Assembly: GCF_002952215.1 (NCBI RefSeq)
Contig: NZ_CP022600.1
Span: forward strand, 2,170,001-2,234,000
Reading direction: 5' to 3'
Length of the DNA stretch: 64,000 nucleotides
Source: Porphyrobacter sp. HT-58-2
GTDB lineage: Bacteria > Pseudomonadota > Alphaproteobacteria > Sphingomonadales > Sphingomonadaceae
The notes under the pieces are model-generated. The model was not told where the DNA came from and ran no database searches. It was given only the letters and a program-made list of their open reading frames with translations. The translations under genes and the position numbers were made by a program. This document shows positions 31,774-40,682 of this stretch, in pieces. The stretch's first letter is position 1. Each line of letters begins with the position of its first letter.

Positions 31774-31788
31774 GAACATAATGAGAAC
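31774..31788 (+). promoter_or_regulatory. LexA box upstream of imuA
   Basis: GAACATAATGAGAAC fits the alphaproteobacterial LexA operator GAAC-N7-GAAC exactly and lies 2 bases before the imuA ATG, so LexA binding would block initiation or early elongation. Confidence 0.88.
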
Positions 31789-31790
31789 AT

Positions 31791-32560
31791 ATGAGTCGTT
31801 CGTCCATGCCTTTCCAACCTTCCAGACCCTCTCCCGCGCGTCTCCTGCCCGCCCGTTTATCCGACGTGCGCTGGCAGCCGGGCCTCACCGCGCAACCGTT
31901 CCATTCCGAAATCTTCGCTCCTGCCACCGAGGCGAGCGGGGCAGGGCTGGCGCTTGCGCTGGCGCGTGACGCCTTGACGTCAGTTGAGGCGGGGAGCGAC
32001 GACACCCGCCAGGTGCTGTGGGTGCAGGATCGCGCGGCGATCCGGCTCGGCGGGCGGCCGTGTCTTGCGGGCCTGCCGCCTGATCTGCGTCATCGCCTGA
32101 TCCACGTCGCAGCCCACACCCCGAAGACGCGCTGTTCGCGCTGGAGGAGGGGCTCAAGTGCCGTGACCTCGCCTGCGTGATCGGCGAGATCGCGGGCAAC
32201 CCGCGCGCGCTTTCCTTCACCGCATCACGCCGCTTGAGCCTCACGGCGGAACGCCACGAGGTCAGGCTGTGGCTGGTGCGGCTCGATGCCGTGCCGGACC
32301 TCTCCTCCGCCCGGATGCGCTGGCAGGTGCGCGCGGCCCCGTCGCCGCGCCCGCGCTGGAACCTCGCCGCCCCCGGCACTGCCAGCTGGCACGCCGAACT
32401 GTTCCGCGCGCGGGCCCATGCTCCGGGTGAATGGATGCTTTGCGATGACGACGGAAACTTGCGCATCTACCGCGATGCCGACCGTGCGGCCGCGACGGAT
32501 CCTGTCCGTCTGGTTCGCCCGACTGTCGGTCGATCGTTGGCGGCGCGCGTTCGCGCCTGA
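31791..32560 (+). pseudogene. imuA: ImuA, SOS mutagenesis accessory protein, frameshifted
   Basis: ImuA is a RecA-like partner of ImuB and DnaE2 in induced mutagenesis. Frame 1 (from ATG 31791) runs through VLWVQDRAAIRLGGRPCLAGL and LRHRLIHVAAHTP, then goes out of frame and stops near 32180. Frame 2 reads EDALFALEEGLKCRDLACV then IGEIAGNPRALSFTASRRLSL to 32560. Restoring one G near 32121-32124 (ACCCCGAAG to ACCCCGGAAG) yields an uninterrupted ~256-residue protein of normal ImuA length. It overlaps imuB by 86 bases. Either a real inactivation or a consensus error. Confidence 0.8.
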
Positions 32561-34067
32561 CGCGCCCGAAACCTGCGCGCCCACCGCGCTGATCATCGAC
32601 ACCGCGCATGGCCCGCGCATCATAGCGGCCAATGATGCCGGGCTGGAGGCAGGGGCGAGGGCTGGCATGTTGCTGGCCGACGCGCGCGCGCTGTGCCCTG
32701 ATCTTGTCGCTGTCCCGGCCGATCCGGCGGGCGATCTGGCAACGCTCGAAAAGCTGGCCCTGTGGGCGCAGCGCTGGGGGCCGTGGAGCGCGCTCGATCC
32801 GCCTGACGGGTTGCTGGTCGATGTCACCGGCGCGGCGCATCTGTTTGGAGGTGAGGAGCGGCTGCTGGCCGATGTCGCGCGGGCTTTTGCTGCCCGCGGG
32901 CTTGCCACCCGCGCGGCGCTTGCACCGACGGCAGGCGCGGCCTGGGCGCTCGCTCGGTATGGCCCGCCTGCCAGCATCCTTCACCCCGGTGACGACCCGC
33001 TCTGCCAGCTCGGCGATCTGCCGGTCGCGGCGCTGCGGCTCGACGATGACGTGCTCACCGTGCTGCGCCGTCTGGGCATCAAGCGGCTCGGCGAACTCGC
33101 CGGGGTGAGCGGTACCAGCGACGATCCGGAGGCCGAGGCCGCCGCGCGCGACGCGCTACGCCGCCGGTTTCGCAATCACCGCTCGCCTGCCGCCAACCCG
33201 CTGCTGCGATTGGACCAATTGCTGGGCCGCTTGCCCGAACCGCTGCTCCCGGTGATCGATCGGCCCATGCCGATGGTGCAGCGCCGGCTGATGGAGCCCT
33301 TGCGTCACCGCGCATCGCTCGACCGGGTGGTGGGCGATCTCGCACAGGACATGGTGCGTGCGCTCGAAGCGCGGGGGGAAGGCGCGCGGCGGCTCGAACT
33401 GGCCTTGTGGCGGGTCGATGGCGAGGTGCTGATGCGCCGGATCGAACTCGCCGCTGCAACCCGCGAGCCAGAGCATATGCTGCGGCTGTTCGCGCGGCGG
33501 CTTGACGATGTCAACGCGGGGTTCGGGATCGAGATGCTGCAATTGCGCGCCAGCTGGAGCGAGCCGCTGGCGCTGTCGCAGGCCGATCTCGATGCTGCGG
33601 CAGAACAGCACGGCACATCGCTGGCAGCCTGCGTTGACCGGCTGACTGTGCGCCTCGGCCAGCAGGCCGTGACCCGCCCAGTCGTGCGTGCCAGTCACAT
33701 TCCCGAGCGCGCGCAGGGCTGGCAGCCACCGCTCGCCCCGGTACCGCCAATGCAAAGCCAACTCGCTTTCAACACCCGCCCGCTCAAGCTGCTCGACCAG
33801 GCCGAGCCGATCGCGGTGCTCTATGCCTCGCCCGATGGCTTCCCCCAGCGTTTCCGCTGGCGCGGTGCGGTACGCGAGGTGGTGCGTGTGGAAGGGCCGG
33901 AGCGGATTGCCCCCGAATGGTGGCGCGAGCGATCCAGCGTGCGATTGCGCGACTATTACCGGATCGAGGACGAAGCCGGACGGCGCTACTGGATCTATCG
34001 TCAGGGGAGTGTGGGCGATGGGCGCGGGGGGACACCGGACTGGTTCCTGCAAGGGCTTTATACCTGA
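32475..34067 (+). CDS. imuB: ImuB, Y-family polymerase-like protein
   Basis: ImuB (530 aa) is a catalytically inactive Y-family relative that tethers DnaE2 to the sliding clamp during translesion synthesis. The N terminus RRILSVWFARLSVDRWRRAF and PTALIIDTAHGPRIIAANDAG are typical, followed by little finger-like and C-terminal regions. The acidic catalytic residues of Y-family enzymes are not in their usual context. I chose ATG 32475 (MPTVRPRRILS); ATG 32445 is an alternative. It overlaps imuA. Confidence 0.9.
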   Translation: MPTVRPRRILSVWFARLSVDRWRRAFAPDAPETCAPTALIIDTAHGPRIIAANDAGLEAGARAGMLLADARALCPDLVAVPADPAGDLATLEKLALWAQRWGPWSALDPPDGLLVDVTGAAHLFGGEERLLADVARAFAARGLATRAALAPTAGAAWALARYGPPASILHPGDDPLCQLGDLPVAALRLDDDVLTVLRRLGIKRLGELAGVSGTSDDPEAEAAARDALRRRFRNHRSPAANPLLRLDQLLGRLPEPLLPVIDRPMPMVQRRLMEPLRHRASLDRVVGDLAQDMVRALEARGEGARRLELALWRVDGEVLMRRIELAAATREPEHMLRLFARRLDDVNAGFGIEMLQLRASWSEPLALSQADLDAAAEQHGTSLAACVDRLTVRLGQQAVTRPVVRASHIPERAQGWQPPLAPVPPMQSQLAFNTRPLKLLDQAEPIAVLYASPDGFPQRFRWRGAVREVVRVEGPERIAPEWWRERSSVRLRDYYRIEDEAGRRYWIYRQGSVGDGRGGTPDWFLQGLYT

Positions 34068-34122
34068 TGTGGTGCCCCCCAGCGCTCAGCATTCCTTTAC
34101 CGAATTGTGAGAGACTTCACTC

Positions 34123-34455
34123 ATGCACCTCGATTCGATCCCGCGCGCATCCGAACGTCGGCCCATGCATCTCACGGTGAAAAGCCGGGTGCGTTCGCGT
34201 GTGGTGTTTGTCGATCTGCTCGACCTGTCCGAAGGCGGCTGCAAGATTCGCGCGAAGGCCGGCTTTGCCGAGGTAGGCGACCGCGTGACGATGAAGGTCA
34301 ACGGAATCAATACGCCGCTCGGCTCGATCGCCTGGGTGGACGGCGGGTTGGCTGGTGTTGCCTTTGAAGGCGCGATGCATCCGGCTGTAATTGATTATCT
34401 GTTCCAGCAGCACGAAGTGCGGGAAAGCCTTCCCAGCTTCCGCCGCATCGTCTGA
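34123..34455 (+). CDS. PilZ-domain protein
   Basis: This 110-residue protein carries a PilZ domain, the cyclic-di-GMP receptor fold. The pattern is ASERRPMHLTVKSRVRSR followed by LLDLSEGGCKIRAK (the [D/N]xSxxG motif) and IAWVDGGLAGVAFE. The first motif is degenerate compared with RxxxR, so ligand binding is uncertain. It sits between imuB and the second LexA box, in the same direction. Confidence 0.8.
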   Translation: MHLDSIPRASERRPMHLTVKSRVRSRVVFVDLLDLSEGGCKIRAKAGFAEVGDRVTMKVNGINTPLGSIAWVDGGLAGVAFEGAMHPAVIDYLFQQHEVRESLPSFRRIV

Positions 34456-34494
34456 TCGATCTTGCAAGCTTTGCATTTGGCAACAAGAATTGCG

Positions 34495-34509
34495 GAACAT
34501 ATAAGGAAC
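34495..34509 (+). promoter_or_regulatory. LexA box upstream of the radical SAM gene
   Basis: GAACATATAAGGAAC fits GAAC-N7-GAAC exactly and lies 17 bases before the radical SAM start. It gives the second half of the island its own SOS promoter. Confidence 0.88.
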
Positions 34510-34525
34510 ATCAAAAGGTGTTCCG

Positions 34526-35779
34526 ATGGTTCAGCAGCCCCTCAGAAAGCGCGACTTACGCCAGAAGCTTGAAATCCTTGCCGATGCGGCGAAATATGAC
34601 GCGTCCTGCGCCTCGTCCGGCACAGCGAAGAAGAATTCGCTGGGCGGGAAGGGAGTGGGTTCGACTGAGGGGATGGGCATCTGCCATGCCTATGCGCCGG
34701 ACGGGCGCTGTATCTCGCTGCTCAAGATCCTGCTGACCAATCACTGCATCTTCGATTGCCACTACTGCATCAACCGCAAGAGCTCGAACGCCCCCCGCGC
34801 GCGGTTCACCCCGCAGGAGGTGGTCGACCTGACGCTGAGCTTCTACCGGCGCAACTACATCGAAGGGCTGTTCCTGTCCTCAGGGATCGTGAAGAGCGCC
34901 AATCATACGATGGAGCAGCTGGTCGAGGTCGCCCGCATCCTGCGCGAGGAGCACGATTTTCGCGGCTATATCCACCTCAAGACCATCCCCGAGGCCGATA
35001 CCGAGATCATCCATCAGGCGGGCCTCTATGCCGACCGCGTCTCGATTAATGTCGAACTGCCAACCGATCAGGGCCTGACCCGGCTCGCGCCCGACAAGAA
35101 CGCCCGCCAGATCGAGGGCGCGATGGGGCGCACAAAGGAGCGCATCCTCACCGCGAAGGATGAGCGCAAGCGTTTCCGCCATGCGCCGCGCTTTGCCCCG
35201 GCGGGACAATCGACGCAGATGATTATCGGCGCGGACGATGCCAGTGATGCGGCGATCATCGGCAAGGCGAGCCGGCTCTATGGCGATTTCGGTCTCAGGC
35301 GCGTTTATTACAGCGCCTTCTCGCCGATCCCCGATGCGAGCGCTGTGCTGCCCCTCAAGCGCCCGCCATTGCTGCGCGAGCACCGGCTGTATCAATCCGA
35401 CTGGCTGATGCGCTTTTACGGCTTTGCCCCTGAGGAGGTGGCCAATGCGGCGGAAGCGGACGGCAACCTGCCGCTCGATATCGACCCCAAGCTCGCTTGG
35501 GCGCTGAAGTTCCGTGGGAGCTTCCCGGTCGACGTCAACCGAGCCCCCAGGGAGATGCTGTTGCGGGTGCCGGGGCTGGGCACCAAGGCGGTGGCGCGCA
35601 TCCTCGCCTCGCGGCGGCACCGGCGGCTGCGATTGGACGATGTCGCGCGGCTGACGGTGTCGGTCGCCAAGGTGCGCCCCTTCATCTGCACGGTGGACTG
35701 GCGCCCGACCTTCCTGACTGACCGCGCGGATTTGCGGGGGTTGATCATCCAGAAGTCCGAACAGCTGGAGCTGTTCTGA
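34526..35779 (+). CDS. Putative DNA modification/repair radical SAM protein (TIGR03916 type)
   Basis: This 417-residue protein has the radical SAM iron-sulfur motif C-x3-C-x2-C in NHCIFDCHYCINRKSSNAP (about residues 73-91). It starts with LRKRDLRQKLEILADAAKYDASC and carries a helix-hairpin-helix DNA-binding element near the C terminus (NRAPREMLLRVPGLGTKAVARIL). This architecture matches the TIGR03916 family, named as a DNA modification/repair protein because it co-occurs with a UdgX-type gene; its reaction is not known. It overlaps the next gene by one base and is preceded by a LexA box. Confidence 0.88.
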   Translation: MVQQPLRKRDLRQKLEILADAAKYDASCASSGTAKKNSLGGKGVGSTEGMGICHAYAPDGRCISLLKILLTNHCIFDCHYCINRKSSNAPRARFTPQEVVDLTLSFYRRNYIEGLFLSSGIVKSANHTMEQLVEVARILREEHDFRGYIHLKTIPEADTEIIHQAGLYADRVSINVELPTDQGLTRLAPDKNARQIEGAMGRTKERILTAKDERKRFRHAPRFAPAGQSTQMIIGADDASDAAIIGKASRLYGDFGLRRVYYSAFSPIPDASAVLPLKRPPLLREHRLYQSDWLMRFYGFAPEEVANAAEADGNLPLDIDPKLAWALKFRGSFPVDVNRAPREMLLRVPGLGTKAVARILASRRHRRLRLDDVARLTVSVAKVRPFICTVDWRPTFLTDRADLRGLIIQKSEQLELF

Positions 35780-37221
35780 TGCGCGTCATGCCCTACGCCG
35801 CAATCGGCGCGCATTACGCCGTCCACTTGCCCGCGCCCGACGATTTTGCCTTCTGGCGCGAGCGGGCGCGGGGGCTCATCCAGTGCGATGTGCCGCCTGA
35901 CCGGGTATCGTGGATCGAGCCGGGGGCGACCGGCGATCTGTTCGCCGCCGAAGGGCCTTCCCGCGCCGAGCGCCGGATGCCTGCACCGCCTGCCGATGCG
36001 CGTCCCGTCCGCGCCAGCCAGCGCTTCCTGACGCTCGCCCGCAGCGCCGCTTTGCATAGCGAACCGACGCGCTTCGCCCTCCTCTACCGCGTGCTGTGGC
36101 GGCTTCAGCGCCAGCCCCGGCTGATGGAAGACAAGGCCGATCCCGAGGTTCGTCGCCTCGAAGAGCTCGCCAAGTCGGTGCGGCGTGATGCCCACAAGAT
36201 GCACGCCTTCGTCCGCTTCCGCGAGGTGCAGGAGGAGGACGGCACCCCTCACTTCGTCGCCTGGTTCGAGCCCGATCATCACATCGTGCGCGCCGAGGCG
36301 GCTTTCTTCATGCGCCGCTTTGCCAATATGCGCTGGTCGATCCTCACCCCGCGCGGGAGCATCCACTGGGATGGCACCACGATGCGCGAAGGCCCGCCCG
36401 CGCGCCGCGAGGATGCGCCGGGCGGCGATCCGGTCGAGGAACTGTGGCGGTCCTACTATGCCTCGATCTTCAATCCGGCGCGGCTGAAGGTCGGCGCGAT
36501 GCTCTCGGAGATGCCGAAGAAATACTGGAAGAATCTGCCCGAGGCCGAGCTGATCCCGCAGCTCATCGCCGGCGCGCAGGCGCGCGAGGCGGCGATGGTG
36601 GCGGCGGGCGCGCGGGACGAGCGGGCGCGGCCGGAGACGCTTGCCAAAGTCGCGCAAGGCATCGCCGCCTGCCGCGACTGTCCGATTGCCGACTGCGGCA
36701 CCCGCGCGGTGGCGGGGGAGGGGCCTTCGCAGGCCGCGCTGATGATCGTCGGCGAGCAGCCCGGCGATCAGGAGGACATCGCCGGGCGGCCTTTCGTAGG
36801 CCCGGCGGGGCAGCTTCTGGACGAATATCTTGCCGCCGCCGGTATCGAGCGGGGCGCGGCCTATGTCACCAATGCGGTCAAGCACTTCAAGTTCGCATGG
36901 AAGGGCAAGCACCGCCTGCACCAGTCGCCTGGTGCGAAGGAGATCGATACCTGTCGCTGGTGGCTCGATGCCGAGCGCGCGCTGGTGCGTCCCCGGATCG
37001 TGCTGGCGCTGGGGGCAAGCGCGGCGCGCGGGTTGCTCGGGCGCACGGTCAGCGTCAATCGCGAGCGTGGCCAGGCCATCCTGCTTGGTGACGGCGCGGA
37101 ATTGTGGGTGACGGTCCACCCCTCCTACCTTCTGCGATTGGACGGCGCGGCGCGCGAAAAGCAGGCGGTGCTGTTCGCTGCGGATCTGGCGATGGTGCGG
37201 GAGCGATTGGGGGTGGACTGA
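35779..37221 (+). CDS. DUF4130-UdgX fusion, uracil-DNA-binding protein
   Basis: This 480-residue fusion has an N-terminal DUF4130 domain (FARFALLYRVLWRLQRQPRL-type region to about 250) and a C-terminal uracil-DNA glycosylase-like UdgX domain from about 285. In that domain IVGEQPGDQEDIAGRPFVGPAG is motif 1 and VHPSYLLRL the distal motif. UdgX forms a covalent bond to the abasic site through a His in KRRIH; here the equivalent is GKHRLHQSP with the His at 381, so the nucleophile is kept while the loop differs. It overlaps the radical SAM gene and dnaE2 by one base each, making one SOS transcript. Confidence 0.88.
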   Translation: MRVMPYAAIGAHYAVHLPAPDDFAFWRERARGLIQCDVPPDRVSWIEPGATGDLFAAEGPSRAERRMPAPPADARPVRASQRFLTLARSAALHSEPTRFALLYRVLWRLQRQPRLMEDKADPEVRRLEELAKSVRRDAHKMHAFVRFREVQEEDGTPHFVAWFEPDHHIVRAEAAFFMRRFANMRWSILTPRGSIHWDGTTMREGPPARREDAPGGDPVEELWRSYYASIFNPARLKVGAMLSEMPKKYWKNLPEAELIPQLIAGAQAREAAMVAAGARDERARPETLAKVAQGIAACRDCPIADCGTRAVAGEGPSQAALMIVGEQPGDQEDIAGRPFVGPAGQLLDEYLAAAGIERGAAYVTNAVKHFKFAWKGKHRLHQSPGAKEIDTCRWWLDAERALVRPRIVLALGASAARGLLGRTVSVNRERGQAILLGDGAELWVTVHPSYLLRLDGAAREKQAVLFAADLAMVRERLGVD

Positions 37222-40200
37222 TGCCCGACGCCCCGCTCACTCCCGACAAGCGCAGGCTCGATATCGACCCCGACGGCATCGCCGCGCCGCCACGCGCAGC
37301 CTTCGTCGAACTCGGCCTCGTCAGCTGCTTCAGCTTCCTGCGCGGCGCCTCGGACGCGGTCGATCTGGTGCTCGCTGCCCACGCGGCGGGTTATGACGCG
37401 ATTGGTATCGCCGACATCAATTCGATGGCAGGCGTGGTGCGCATCCATACCGAGGCGCGGACGCTGAAATTGCGCCCGGTGATCGGTTGCCGGATCGAGA
37501 CGGTTGAGGGCCTCGCCTTCCTCGCCTACCCTGAGGACCGCGCCGCCTATGGCCGCTTGTGCCGCTTGATCAGCGCGGGCCGGATGCAGACGCTCTCGGG
37601 CGAATGGCAGGACAAGGGCGTGTGCGAGATCGACCTTGCGCTGCTGGCCGAGCATTCCGAAGGCGTGCAGTTGATCCTGCTCCCGCCGGATGATCCGGAT
37701 GCGCGCTTCACCATTCAGGTGCCGAGCAATGTGATCCCCTTTCCCCGTCCCGGCCCCCGAGCCGGGAGCCCGCTCCCTTCCGATAGCGGCCCGCAAGACA
37801 GCGGGGCCCCGGATCAGGTCCGGGGTGGGGGGAGCATGGAACTGACTGCCCCGTTCGCCGACCTCCTGCCCCACCTCGTCCGCCAGTTTCCCACGCTGCG
37901 CCACATCGCCGCCAGCTACCTTTATCGCGGTGACGATATCGCGCGAATCGAGCGACTGGACGAACTCGCATGCGCTCACGGCCTTGGCCTCCTCGCCACC
38001 AACGACGTCCACTATCATGCGCCCGAGCGGCGCGCCTTGCAGGACGTGATGACCGCGATCCGGCACAAGACCACCGTGGCCGCCGCCGGGCACCTGCTCC
38101 ACCCCAATGCCGAGCGGCACCTCAAGTCCCCGCAGGAGATGCGGCGCCTCTTCGCCCGCTGGCCTCACGCGATCCGCGCCGCGCGCGAAGTCGCCGATCG
38201 GTGCAACTTCAGCCTCGATGAACTGCGCTACGAATACCCGGAGGAGATCTACCCCGACGGCCAGACCCCGCAGGCCTTTCTGGAGAGCGAGGTCTGGGCC
38301 GGGGCAGGGGGGCGCTATCCCGAAGGGTTGCCCGAAACCGTCCGCGCCACGCTGGAGCGCGAGCTTGCCCTTATCGCCAAGCTTGATCTGGCGCGCTACT
38401 TCCTCACCATCAAGGACATCGTCGATTTCGCGCGGGGGCAGGAGCCGCCAATCCTGTGTCAGGGGCGCGGCTCAGCGGCCAACTCCGCCGTGTGTTACGT
38501 CCTTGGCATCACCAGCGTCGATCCGGCCAAGCACCAGCTCTTGTTCGATCGCTTCATCTCCGAAGAGCGCAAGGAGCCGCCCGATATCGATGTCGATTTC
38601 GAGCATGAACGGCGCGAGGAGGTGATCCAGTACATCTACCGCAAATATGGCCGCCACCGCGCCGGGCTGTGTGCGACCGTGATCCACTACCGCCCGCGCA
38701 TGGCGATCCGCGAGGTGGGCAAGGCGATGGGCCTGTCGGAGGACGTCACCAGCGCGCTGGCACGCACCGTCTGGGGCGGGTGGGGCCGCGAGATTTCCGA
38801 GAAGCACGCCGCCGAAACGGGCCTCGACATAACCGACCCGCACTTGCGCCGCGTGCTCAAGCTCACCGAGCAGATGATCGGCATGCCGCGCCATCTGGGC
38901 CAGCATGTCGGCGGCTTCATCCTGACCGAAGGCGCGCTGACCGAGACCGTCCCGATCGGCAATGGCGCCATGCCCGAGCGGAGCTTCATCGAGTGGGACA
39001 AGGACGATATCGAGGCGCTGGGCATCCTCAAGGTCGATGTGCTGGCGCTGGGGATGCTGACCTGCATTCGCAAATGCCTCGATCTGCTGGGTGCGCATCA
39101 CGGCCGCGCTCTGACGCTCGCCACTGTCCCGCGCGAAGATCCGGAGACTTACGCCATGCTGCGCCGGGGCGATTCGCTCGGGGTGTTTCAGGTCGAGAGC
39201 CGGGCGCAGATGAACATGCTCCCGCGCCTGCGCCCGCGCGAATTCTACGATCTTGTCATTCAGGTCGCGATTGTCAGGCCCGGCCCGATTCAGGGCGACA
39301 TGGTGCATCCCTATCTCAAGCGCCGCCGCGGTGCAGAGCCCGTCCAGATCCCCGCGCCCGCGCCCGAACACGGGCCGCCGGATGAGCTCACCAGCATCTT
39401 GGGGCGCACGCTGGGCGTGCCGATCTTTCAGGAACAGGCGATGAAGATCGCATTGGATGCGGCGAAGTTCTCCAGCCTCGAAGCCAACCGGCTGAGAAAG
39501 GCGATGGCGACCTTCCGCAGCCGGGGGATGGTGGACGAGCTTCAGGACATGATGGTCGAACGCATGGTCGCGCGCGGCTATGATCGCGACTTTGCACAGA
39601 GATGCTTCAATCAAATCAGAGGTTTCGGCGAATATGGCTTTCCCGAAAGTCACGCTGCGAGCTTTGCCCAGCTGGTTTACGTGTCGAGCTGGCTCAAGTG
39701 CCACTACCCGGCTGCCTTCGCCTGCGCGCTGCTCAATTCGCAGCCGATGGGCTTCTACGCGCCCGCGCAGATCGTGCGCGACGCGGCGGAGCACGGGGTG
39801 CGGGTGCTGCCGGTCGATGTGAATGCAAGTCTCTGGGATTGCACGCTGGAGGGCGAAGCCCTGCGCCTTGGCTTGCGCCAGATTGACGGCCTGCCCGAAC
39901 ACGTCGCCGCCGCGCTTGTCTCGGCGCGCGAGGCAGGCGGGGCTTACCGCGATATTGCCGATCTGCGCGCACGGGGCCGGCTGTCGCCGGTGCATATCGA
40001 GCGGCTCGCCAGCGCCGATGCTTTCACCTCGCTGGGGCTCACCCGCAGACAGGCCTTGTGGGATGCCCGCAGTCTGATTGCCGCGCCCGACCTGCCTTTG
40101 TTCCGCGCCATGGGCGTGCGCGAGGAGGGGGCGGAGCGCCGTGCGATCACACTCCCCGCCATGCCCCTGTCCGAGGAAGTGGTGGCCGATTACCAGACCA

Positions 40201-40682
40201 CCCGCCTCAGCCTGAAGGCGCACCCCATGGCCTTCCTGCGTGCCGATCTGGCCGAGCGCGGTTTCGTGCGCGCCTGCGATTTAAGATCGCGGAAATTCAG
40301 GAGCATGGTGCAGGTCGCTGGCGTGGTGCTGATCCGCCAGCGGCCCGGCAGCGCCAAGGGCGTGACCTTCATCACGCTCGAGGACGAGACCGGGGTGGTC
40401 AACCTCGTGGTATGGCCCGATCTCAAGGAAAAACAGCGCAAGGTGGTGATGGGGGCACGGCTGATGGAGGTGCGGGGCCGGGTCGAGTATGATGACGAGG
40501 TGATCCACGTCATCGCCGCCCATCTGACCGATGCGACCCACCGGCTTCACGCCCTGTCCGACGACCTGCTCGACGCCCCGCTCGCCCGCGCTGACGAGGT
40601 CAATCGTCCGATGCCGGAGCGCGGCCCCGGTGGGCATCCACGCGATGCCCGTATCATCCCGAAATCACGCGATTTTCACTAG
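37221..40682 (+). CDS. dnaE2: Error-prone DNA polymerase DnaE2 (ImuC)
   Basis: DnaE2 (1153 aa) is a C-family polymerase that performs damage-induced mutagenic synthesis with ImuA and ImuB. The PHP domain opens with FVELGLVSCFSFLRGASDAVDL, the catalytic acids are in PPDIDVDFEHERREEVIQYI, and the tandem HhH and C-terminal OB-fold (VAGVVLIRQRPGSAKGVTFI) follow. Residues about 177-205 (PRPGPRAGSPLPSDSG, then APDQVRGGG) are a translated repeat. ATG 37221 overlaps the UdgX stop (TGATG); the frame is open 39 codons upstream. Confidence 0.94.
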   Translation: MPDAPLTPDKRRLDIDPDGIAAPPRAAFVELGLVSCFSFLRGASDAVDLVLAAHAAGYDAIGIADINSMAGVVRIHTEARTLKLRPVIGCRIETVEGLAFLAYPEDRAAYGRLCRLISAGRMQTLSGEWQDKGVCEIDLALLAEHSEGVQLILLPPDDPDARFTIQVPSNVIPFPRPGPRAGSPLPSDSGPQDSGAPDQVRGGGSMELTAPFADLLPHLVRQFPTLRHIAASYLYRGDDIARIERLDELACAHGLGLLATNDVHYHAPERRALQDVMTAIRHKTTVAAAGHLLHPNAERHLKSPQEMRRLFARWPHAIRAAREVADRCNFSLDELRYEYPEEIYPDGQTPQAFLESEVWAGAGGRYPEGLPETVRATLERELALIAKLDLARYFLTIKDIVDFARGQEPPILCQGRGSAANSAVCYVLGITSVDPAKHQLLFDRFISEERKEPPDIDVDFEHERREEVIQYIYRKYGRHRAGLCATVIHYRPRMAIREVGKAMGLSEDVTSALARTVWGGWGREISEKHAAETGLDITDPHLRRVLKLTEQMIGMPRHLGQHVGGFILTEGALTETVPIGNGAMPERSFIEWDKDDIEALGILKVDVLALGMLTCIRKCLDLLGAHHGRALTLATVPREDPETYAMLRRGDSLGVFQVESRAQMNMLPRLRPREFYDLVIQVAIVRPGPIQGDMVHPYLKRRRGAEPVQIPAPAPEHGPPDELTSILGRTLGVPIFQEQAMKIALDAAKFSSLEANRLRKAMATFRSRGMVDELQDMMVERMVARGYDRDFAQRCFNQIRGFGEYGFPESHAASFAQLVYVSSWLKCHYPAAFACALLNSQPMGFYAPAQIVRDAAEHGVRVLPVDVNASLWDCTLEGEALRLGLRQIDGLPEHVAAALVSAREAGGAYRDIADLRARGRLSPVHIERLASADAFTSLGLTRRQALWDARSLIAAPDLPLFRAMGVREEGAERRAITLPAMPLSEEVVADYQTTRLSLKAHPMAFLRADLAERGFVRACDLRSRKFRSMVQVAGVVLIRQRPGSAKGVTFITLEDETGVVNLVVWPDLKEKQRKVVMGARLMEVRGRVEYDDEVIHVIAAHLTDATHRLHALSDDLLDAPLARADEVNRPMPERGPGGHPRDARIIPKSRDFH
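37749..37833. repeat. REP-like insertion inside dnaE2
   Basis: The segment contains GGCCCCGGATCAGGTCCGGG, the core of a repeat common in sphingomonads between genes. Here it is read in frame as Pro/Gly/Ser-rich sequence (including APDQVRGG) in the PHP-domain region of DnaE2. It lies between conserved blocks and is likely an insertion. Confidence 0.6.

Follow-up and report, generated by a model that had tools for sequence, protein, structure and literature searches.

The window analysed here is a 64,000-nucleotide stretch of the genome of Porphyrobacter sp. HT-58-2, which consists of a single contig of 3.28 Mb; all positions given below are those of the window. It encodes a predicted SOS-controlled island in which genes of the ImuA-ImuB-DnaE2 mutasome surround a radical SAM gene of the TIGR03916 family (hereafter rSAM, for both gene and protein) and its partner, a DUF4130-UdgX fusion. 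Reading along the plus strand from 31774, the order is LexA box 1, imuA (in two frames), imuB, a PilZ-domain gene, LexA box 2, rSAM, the DUF4130-UdgX gene and dnaE2. An amino-acid permease-like gene and a phoB-like gene, both labelled from their translations, flank the island.

Box 1 (GAACATAATGAGAAC, 31774-31788) stands before imuA, and box 2 (GAACATATAAGGAAC, 34495-34509) lies 16 bp 5' of the rSAM start. The rSAM gene (34526-35779) scores 578.7 bits against the curated cut-off of 343.5 for TIGR03916 (rSAM_link_UDG), a family named 'putative DNA modification/repair', and its nearest named relatives come from Porphyrobacter and Erythrobacter. It overlaps by one base with the DUF4130-UdgX gene (35779-37221), whose product matches TIGR03915 over residues 20-256 (228.2 bits, cut-off 112.25) and TIGR03914 over residues 258-473, also over its cut-off. 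The latter gene in turn overlaps by one base with dnaE2 (37221-40682), an error-prone polymerase III alpha subunit of the DnaE2 type found in the ImuABC mutasome (NF004225, 1391 bits against 939). Within dnaE2, a GC-rich and partly palindromic segment (37752-37840) resembles an inserted low-complexity sequence, of which a 20-mer search found no second copy in the window. Upstream, the imuB open frame (32286-34067), with its real start probably further in, encodes a Y-family-like protein with the IMS, IMS_C and DUF6504 domains (PF00817, PF11799 and PF20114), all over their Pfam cut-offs. Open-reading-frame coordinates, family scans of imuB and dnaE2, the imuA frames and a pattern search thus bear out the mutasome genes, the two exact GAAC-N7-GAAC boxes and the overlapping rSAM-UdgX-dnaE2 order described in a first-pass annotation of this DNA. 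That annotation overlooked the PilZ-domain gene between imuB and box 2 (34123-34455; PF07238, 31.2 bits against 22.5), which is retained in same-genus loci both with and without rSAM-UdgX.

The imuA gene is split between a first part (31791-32180), which stops early, and a second part in a different frame (32177-32560, from the mechanical start of the open frame), while a single frame of 240-300 residues is found in all 39 related loci with the gene. The island, earlier described as complete, is therefore not complete as sequenced and lacks an intact ImuA; the split could reflect either a genuine break in the gene or an error in the sequence. Even the intact ImuA of a relative scores weakly on the NF033429 model (22.9 bits against 150). 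Compared with the known ImuA-ImuB-DnaE2 mutasome, the gene set and the LexA box at imuA are the same; the differences are the broken imuA and the PilZ-domain gene, second LexA box and rSAM-UdgX genes that part imuB from dnaE2.

We examined the partners of rSAM in 196 genomes of the order and 299 of the phylum, two samples that share genomes. In the order sample, rSAM and DUF4130 each pass their cut-offs in the same 82 genomes and lie within 1.5 kb of each other in 79 of these; in the phylum sample, DUF4130 is present in 53 of 53 rSAM genomes (51 within 1.5 kb), and three further genomes have DUF4130 without rSAM. In 40 of 56 DUF4130 genomes a UdgX domain lies at most 100 bp after DUF4130, and some of the remaining 16 (G030, G384 and G470) resemble frame breaks or contig ends. 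A Caulobacter vibrioides genome used as a control matches both TIGR03915, over its cut-off, and TIGR03916, for which two of the three control genomes pass the cut-off. Because of this near-constant pairing and the looser presence of UdgX, the core of the unit is rSAM-DUF4130, with UdgX as an optional addition. In 14 of 80 related loci a hemerythrin-like gene (for instance 11295-11774 of L106, a PF01814 protein) stands between rSAM and UdgX; its product might handle oxygen or iron on behalf of the radical enzyme.

In the window's fusion the UdgX part has the GEQPG and KHRLH motifs, which align to GEQPG and KRRIH of UdgX and include the Q53/R107/H109 signature as given in the accessible portion of PMC10359453. 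All three UdgX motifs occur in 67 of 73 related proteins; of the other six, four fail the strict R-loop pattern and two fail motif B. The residues needed for covalent capture are kept in the window's fusion, and capture itself is predicted. Relative to Mycobacterium smegmatis UdgX, the domain here is C-terminal to DUF4130, lies in an SOS operon and has the R-loop KHRLH. In fold searches with the fusion, matches to the UdgX domain took up the listed rows.

The rSAM protein has a matched radical SAM domain in the Pfam scan and six cysteines that are invariant in 48 of 48 aligned rows, namely C28, C53 and C62 in addition to the CxxxCxxC cluster motif (C74, C78 and C81). The helix-hairpin-helix (HhH) elements proposed earlier have weak support: the C-terminal part gives a weak profile match to RuvA (E-value 6e-4) and to a ComEA-related HhH, but its Pfam HHH_3 score of 20.1 bits is under the cut-off of 27. 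Taken together, the cysteines and the weakly supported HhH tail suggest that rSAM is an enzyme with two clusters whose substrate is DNA. The best fold matches are HydG, pyruvate formate-lyase (PFL)-activating enzyme and MiaB with Foldseek and lipoyl synthase and HydE with VIA-align. Unlike lipoyl synthase (LipA/LIAS), rSAM has an HhH-like tail, ranks the three former folds first in Foldseek and has a different cysteine spacing from the LipA layout; its N-terminal cysteine region is modelled at low confidence (predicted local distance difference test score below 50 at residues 28-40 and 48-63).

We next consider the LexA boxes. The bare GAAC-N7-GAAC pattern is near background both in the window (4 matches against 1.32 expected, a count matched by 5 of 100 shuffles) and in the genome (93 matches against 105 for a reversed control), and we rejected its frequency as evidence; the window also has one GAAC-N4-GTTC match, with 0.52 expected. 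Fourteen of the 93 genomic matches, including both island boxes, start with GAACAT. It is their position and conservation, together with same-form boxes before recA, lexA and uvrA of the same genome (recA and uvrA named from translations), that set the two island boxes above chance. A box lies 5' of imuA in each of the 31 related loci whose upstream sequence is available, a contig-edge row (L044) being left out, and near the rSAM start in 78 of 80 related loci. The latter are made up of 32 of 32 dnaE2-linked loci and 46 of 48 others (a group that includes at least L041 and L049, both truncated at a contig end, and L058, in which 592 bp separate the unit from dnaE2), with 30 boxes in the remaining 1.48 Mb. 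The alphaproteobacterial motif is given as GAAC-N7-GAAC in the accessible portion of PMC8565304.

Beyond the order, the region at the rSAM start was inspected in 43 phylum-sample genomes with rSAM over the cut-off. All 26 from the same class have GAAC-N7-GAAC, while none of the 17 from other classes has it and 12 of these have CTGT-N8-ACAG, which we take to be the LexA motif of those classes; the expected counts, from resampled sequence, are 0.21 and 0.05. This pattern indicates that rSAM kept a LexA-type box although the LexA motif changed across classes. With the conserved box at the promoter, rSAM would belong to the LexA regulon, and LexA control is predicted for both units of the island. 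Elsewhere in the same genome, two tandem LexA-type boxes (L149, G000:C1:1784201-1784239) precede a membrane-like protein of 84 residues, a candidate SOS-induced division inhibitor, and a further box (GAACATATGAGGAAC; L152, G000:C1:1878178) lies 5' of a 214-residue protein.

The linkage of the rSAM unit to dnaE2 is recurrent. Of the 82 rSAM genomes in the order sample, 35 carry dnaE2 at most 4 kb from rSAM, in each case on the same strand. On a tree of rSAM (80 rows: the window, 76 loci and three outgroups, with four contig-edge rows left out), the linked state needs 9 changes as against 26 with shuffled labels, and a well-supported clade holding the window is dnaE2-linked in 14 of 14 rows. A second arrangement is seen in the family f14, where in four loci (L218-L221) rSAM-UdgX is divergent from imuB-dnaE2 with one shared box (GAACATATCATGAAC) between them; an imuA-like match precedes imuB in L218 and L220. 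In three other f14 loci (L222, L223 and L224, of genomes G406, G470 and G390) there is no rSAM match, and a DUF4130-UdgX protein, a box and the imu genes remain. The linkage table rests on 23 dnaE2 places picked by eye for sharing a contig with rSAM or DUF4130, which a few do not.

The two gene sets also occur apart. A dnaE2 match accompanies rSAM in 79 of 82 order genomes and 45 of 53 phylum genomes, and was not found in the other 3 (at E 1e-200) and 8 (at E 1e-270). rSAM and DUF4130 are kept without a dnaE2 match at E 1e-200 in G134, G168 and G193, and in the first of these the pair, with its own box, adjoins a phoB-like gene. Conversely, 4 of 11 sampled genomes of the window's genus have no rSAM or DUF4130 match and keep dnaE2. 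Three of these (G163, G130 and G127) show imuA-imuB-PilZ, a box and dnaE2, the box being letter-identical to box 2 in G130 and G127 and one letter off in G163; in the fourth (G157) imuB adjoins dnaE2, with one box upstream. About 50 bp past the box in G127 is a stretch resembling rSAM residues 18-40 (48% over 23 residues, E 0.53, alone not significant), a part that in the window begins 67 bp past the box. Such a remnant suggests that the rSAM pair was lost in G127 rather than never gained, and we infer the same loss in G163 and G130. Among 13 loci picked non-randomly from the dnaE2 and rSAM tables, the eight chosen order loci L269-L276 have imuB directly adjoining dnaE2. The first-pass annotation had expected a conserved order in relatives and had taken its loss among close relatives as grounds for refutation: the order does persist in the same-strand loci and in the window's whole clade, and it is lost in part within the genus. 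The tight coupling to translesion synthesis that it had proposed is not supported in that form, the stable partner of rSAM being DUF4130 and each module occurring alone.

Accordingly, we favour as the probable explanation that the island combines two SOS modules under common LexA control which, in this clade, lie in one operon. As judged from sequence and context, the first is the imuA-imuB-dnaE2 mutasome gene set, with imuA broken here, and the second is rSAM plus DUF4130, its obligate partner, which is joined to UdgX in this genome. This second module sits between imuB and dnaE2, following a predicted box of its own. The modules appear to be co-regulated but separable; since genomes carry either module alone, the data do not support a translesion step as obligate. 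Mechanistically, LexA would keep the two promoters repressed until its cleavage is set off by RecA filaments, whereupon ImuB and ImuA would recruit DnaE2 to stalled forks. Meanwhile, rSAM-DUF4130, held on DNA via the HhH-like tail, might reverse or process a damaged base by radical chemistry, a step that we regard as possible but doubtful, and the UdgX domain would trap single-stranded DNA covalently at uracil or abasic sites. The tie to translesion synthesis would then lie in common timing and common damage, with no obligate hand-over.

Several observations weigh against this explanation. The linkage takes two architectures, on the same strand in the window's family and divergent around one box in f14, and such recurrence speaks for a genuine functional tie or, at a minimum, for shared control. 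dnaE2 is also found in 45 of 53 rSAM genomes as against 69 of 246 without rSAM, kinship being ignored in this comparison; with the two architectures, this enrichment would point to a closer cooperation than plain co-regulation. The pairings have their exceptions too: rSAM occurs without a UdgX match in 2 of 80 loci, and three f14 genomes have DUF4130-UdgX without rSAM. As for control, 2 of the 80 related loci (L093 and L110) have no box at rSAM, and neither box type was found at the rSAM start in 5 of the 17 genomes from other classes (G424, G446, G469, G268 and G287). Finally, the reaction ascribed to rSAM is deduced from its cysteines, predicted fold and context.

The original proposal would make rSAM-UdgX a functional part of the mutasome, one that readies abasic or damaged sites for DnaE2 or removes them. 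The same-strand links, the divergent loci around a shared box, the commoner presence of dnaE2 in rSAM genomes and the UdgX protein that faces the imu genes in L222-L224 although rSAM is absent are all consistent with it. Nevertheless, each module is found without the other, the rSAM unit has its own box in nearly all loci scored as not dnaE2-linked, and dnaE2 goes unmatched in the 8 phylum-sample genomes mentioned above; we therefore hold this proposal to be unlikely. Somewhat less likely still is a reading in which rSAM-DUF4130 is a two-cluster enzyme acting directly on damaged bases in DNA, with C28, C53 and C62 holding the second cluster, and in which UdgX, acquired as an add-on by many lineages, would dock it at uracil or abasic sites of single-stranded DNA at stalled forks. 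If true, the two architectures that bring the unit together with mutasome genes would be the sign of a joint pathway of repair or bypass.

Spore photoproduct lyase family models exist in NCBIfam and Pfam, and none is among the matches of rSAM (E 0.001) or of two relatives (E 0.1). No such lyase is among the 50 Foldseek and 50 VIA-align matches listed, an absence that carries no weight either way. The missing model match, the best folds named above and the three extra invariant cysteines count against rSAM being an SplB-like photolyase that would revert a thymine photoproduct, a reading with a low probability in our estimation, which follows a proposal in PMC3765255. In its favour are the radical SAM domain, the HhH-like tail, the SOS-type boxes and the proposal itself, for the accessible portion of that study ties DUF4130 to SplB-like radical SAM proteins and uracil-DNA glycosylases (UDGs) in SOS neighbourhoods. 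A role of rSAM as a built-in eraser, releasing UdgX from the covalent adduct that it forms with abasic DNA, would fit the one-base gene overlap and the turnover that a suicide-type binder should need, but it cannot be the general function because DUF4130 genomes exist without UdgX nearby (the 16 of 56 above), and we consider it very improbable. Least credible is a DNA-modification or anti-phage device unconnected with repair, which the family name and the rSAM relatives in 158 plasmid records might suggest, but which sits poorly with the conserved LexA boxes and with the finding of no PADLOC match to a defence system at E 0.001.

The rSAM protein also matches 10 phage records. In the best annotated of these, 'Acinetobacter phage MD-2021a' (L212), rSAM and DUF4130-type genes stand beside glyS, glyQ and aidB; this record looks bacterial and a second one is unannotated, and we make no claim of a phage origin.

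SOS control of such a radical SAM/UDG pair is already published: as far as the accessible portion of PMC8565304 goes, LexA regulates a COG1573-COG4277 pair in Bacteroidetes, with earlier reports from Verrucomicrobia and Alphaproteobacteria. That system shares with ours the LexA control of a UDG-based pair and differs in being a two-gene operon, while here the pair is embedded in the imu operon before dnaE2. Parts of two other papers report an Acinetobacter rSAM gene that goes up on desiccation (PMC13130816) and a radical SAM gene in the LexA regulon of Streptomyces venezuelae (PMC9380542), the latter without implying membership in TIGR03916. The accessible portions of three Caulobacter papers (PMC12700426, PMC6120978 and PMC1839093) do not mention the radical SAM gene. 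Among the papers accessible to us, our literature search found none joining UdgX with DnaE2 or with a radical SAM protein. The comparison with the published pair relies on COG4277 being the TIGR03916 radical SAM protein, as we presume.

To our knowledge, few radical SAM enzymes are known to repair DNA. The present analysis adds that the pair is embedded in the imu operon, that imuA is broken here, that rSAM is strictly paired with DUF4130, that its box switched between LexA types and that some genomes carry one module without the other. Direct tests are now possible of which damage needs rSAM-DUF4130 and of whether the mutasome depends on it.

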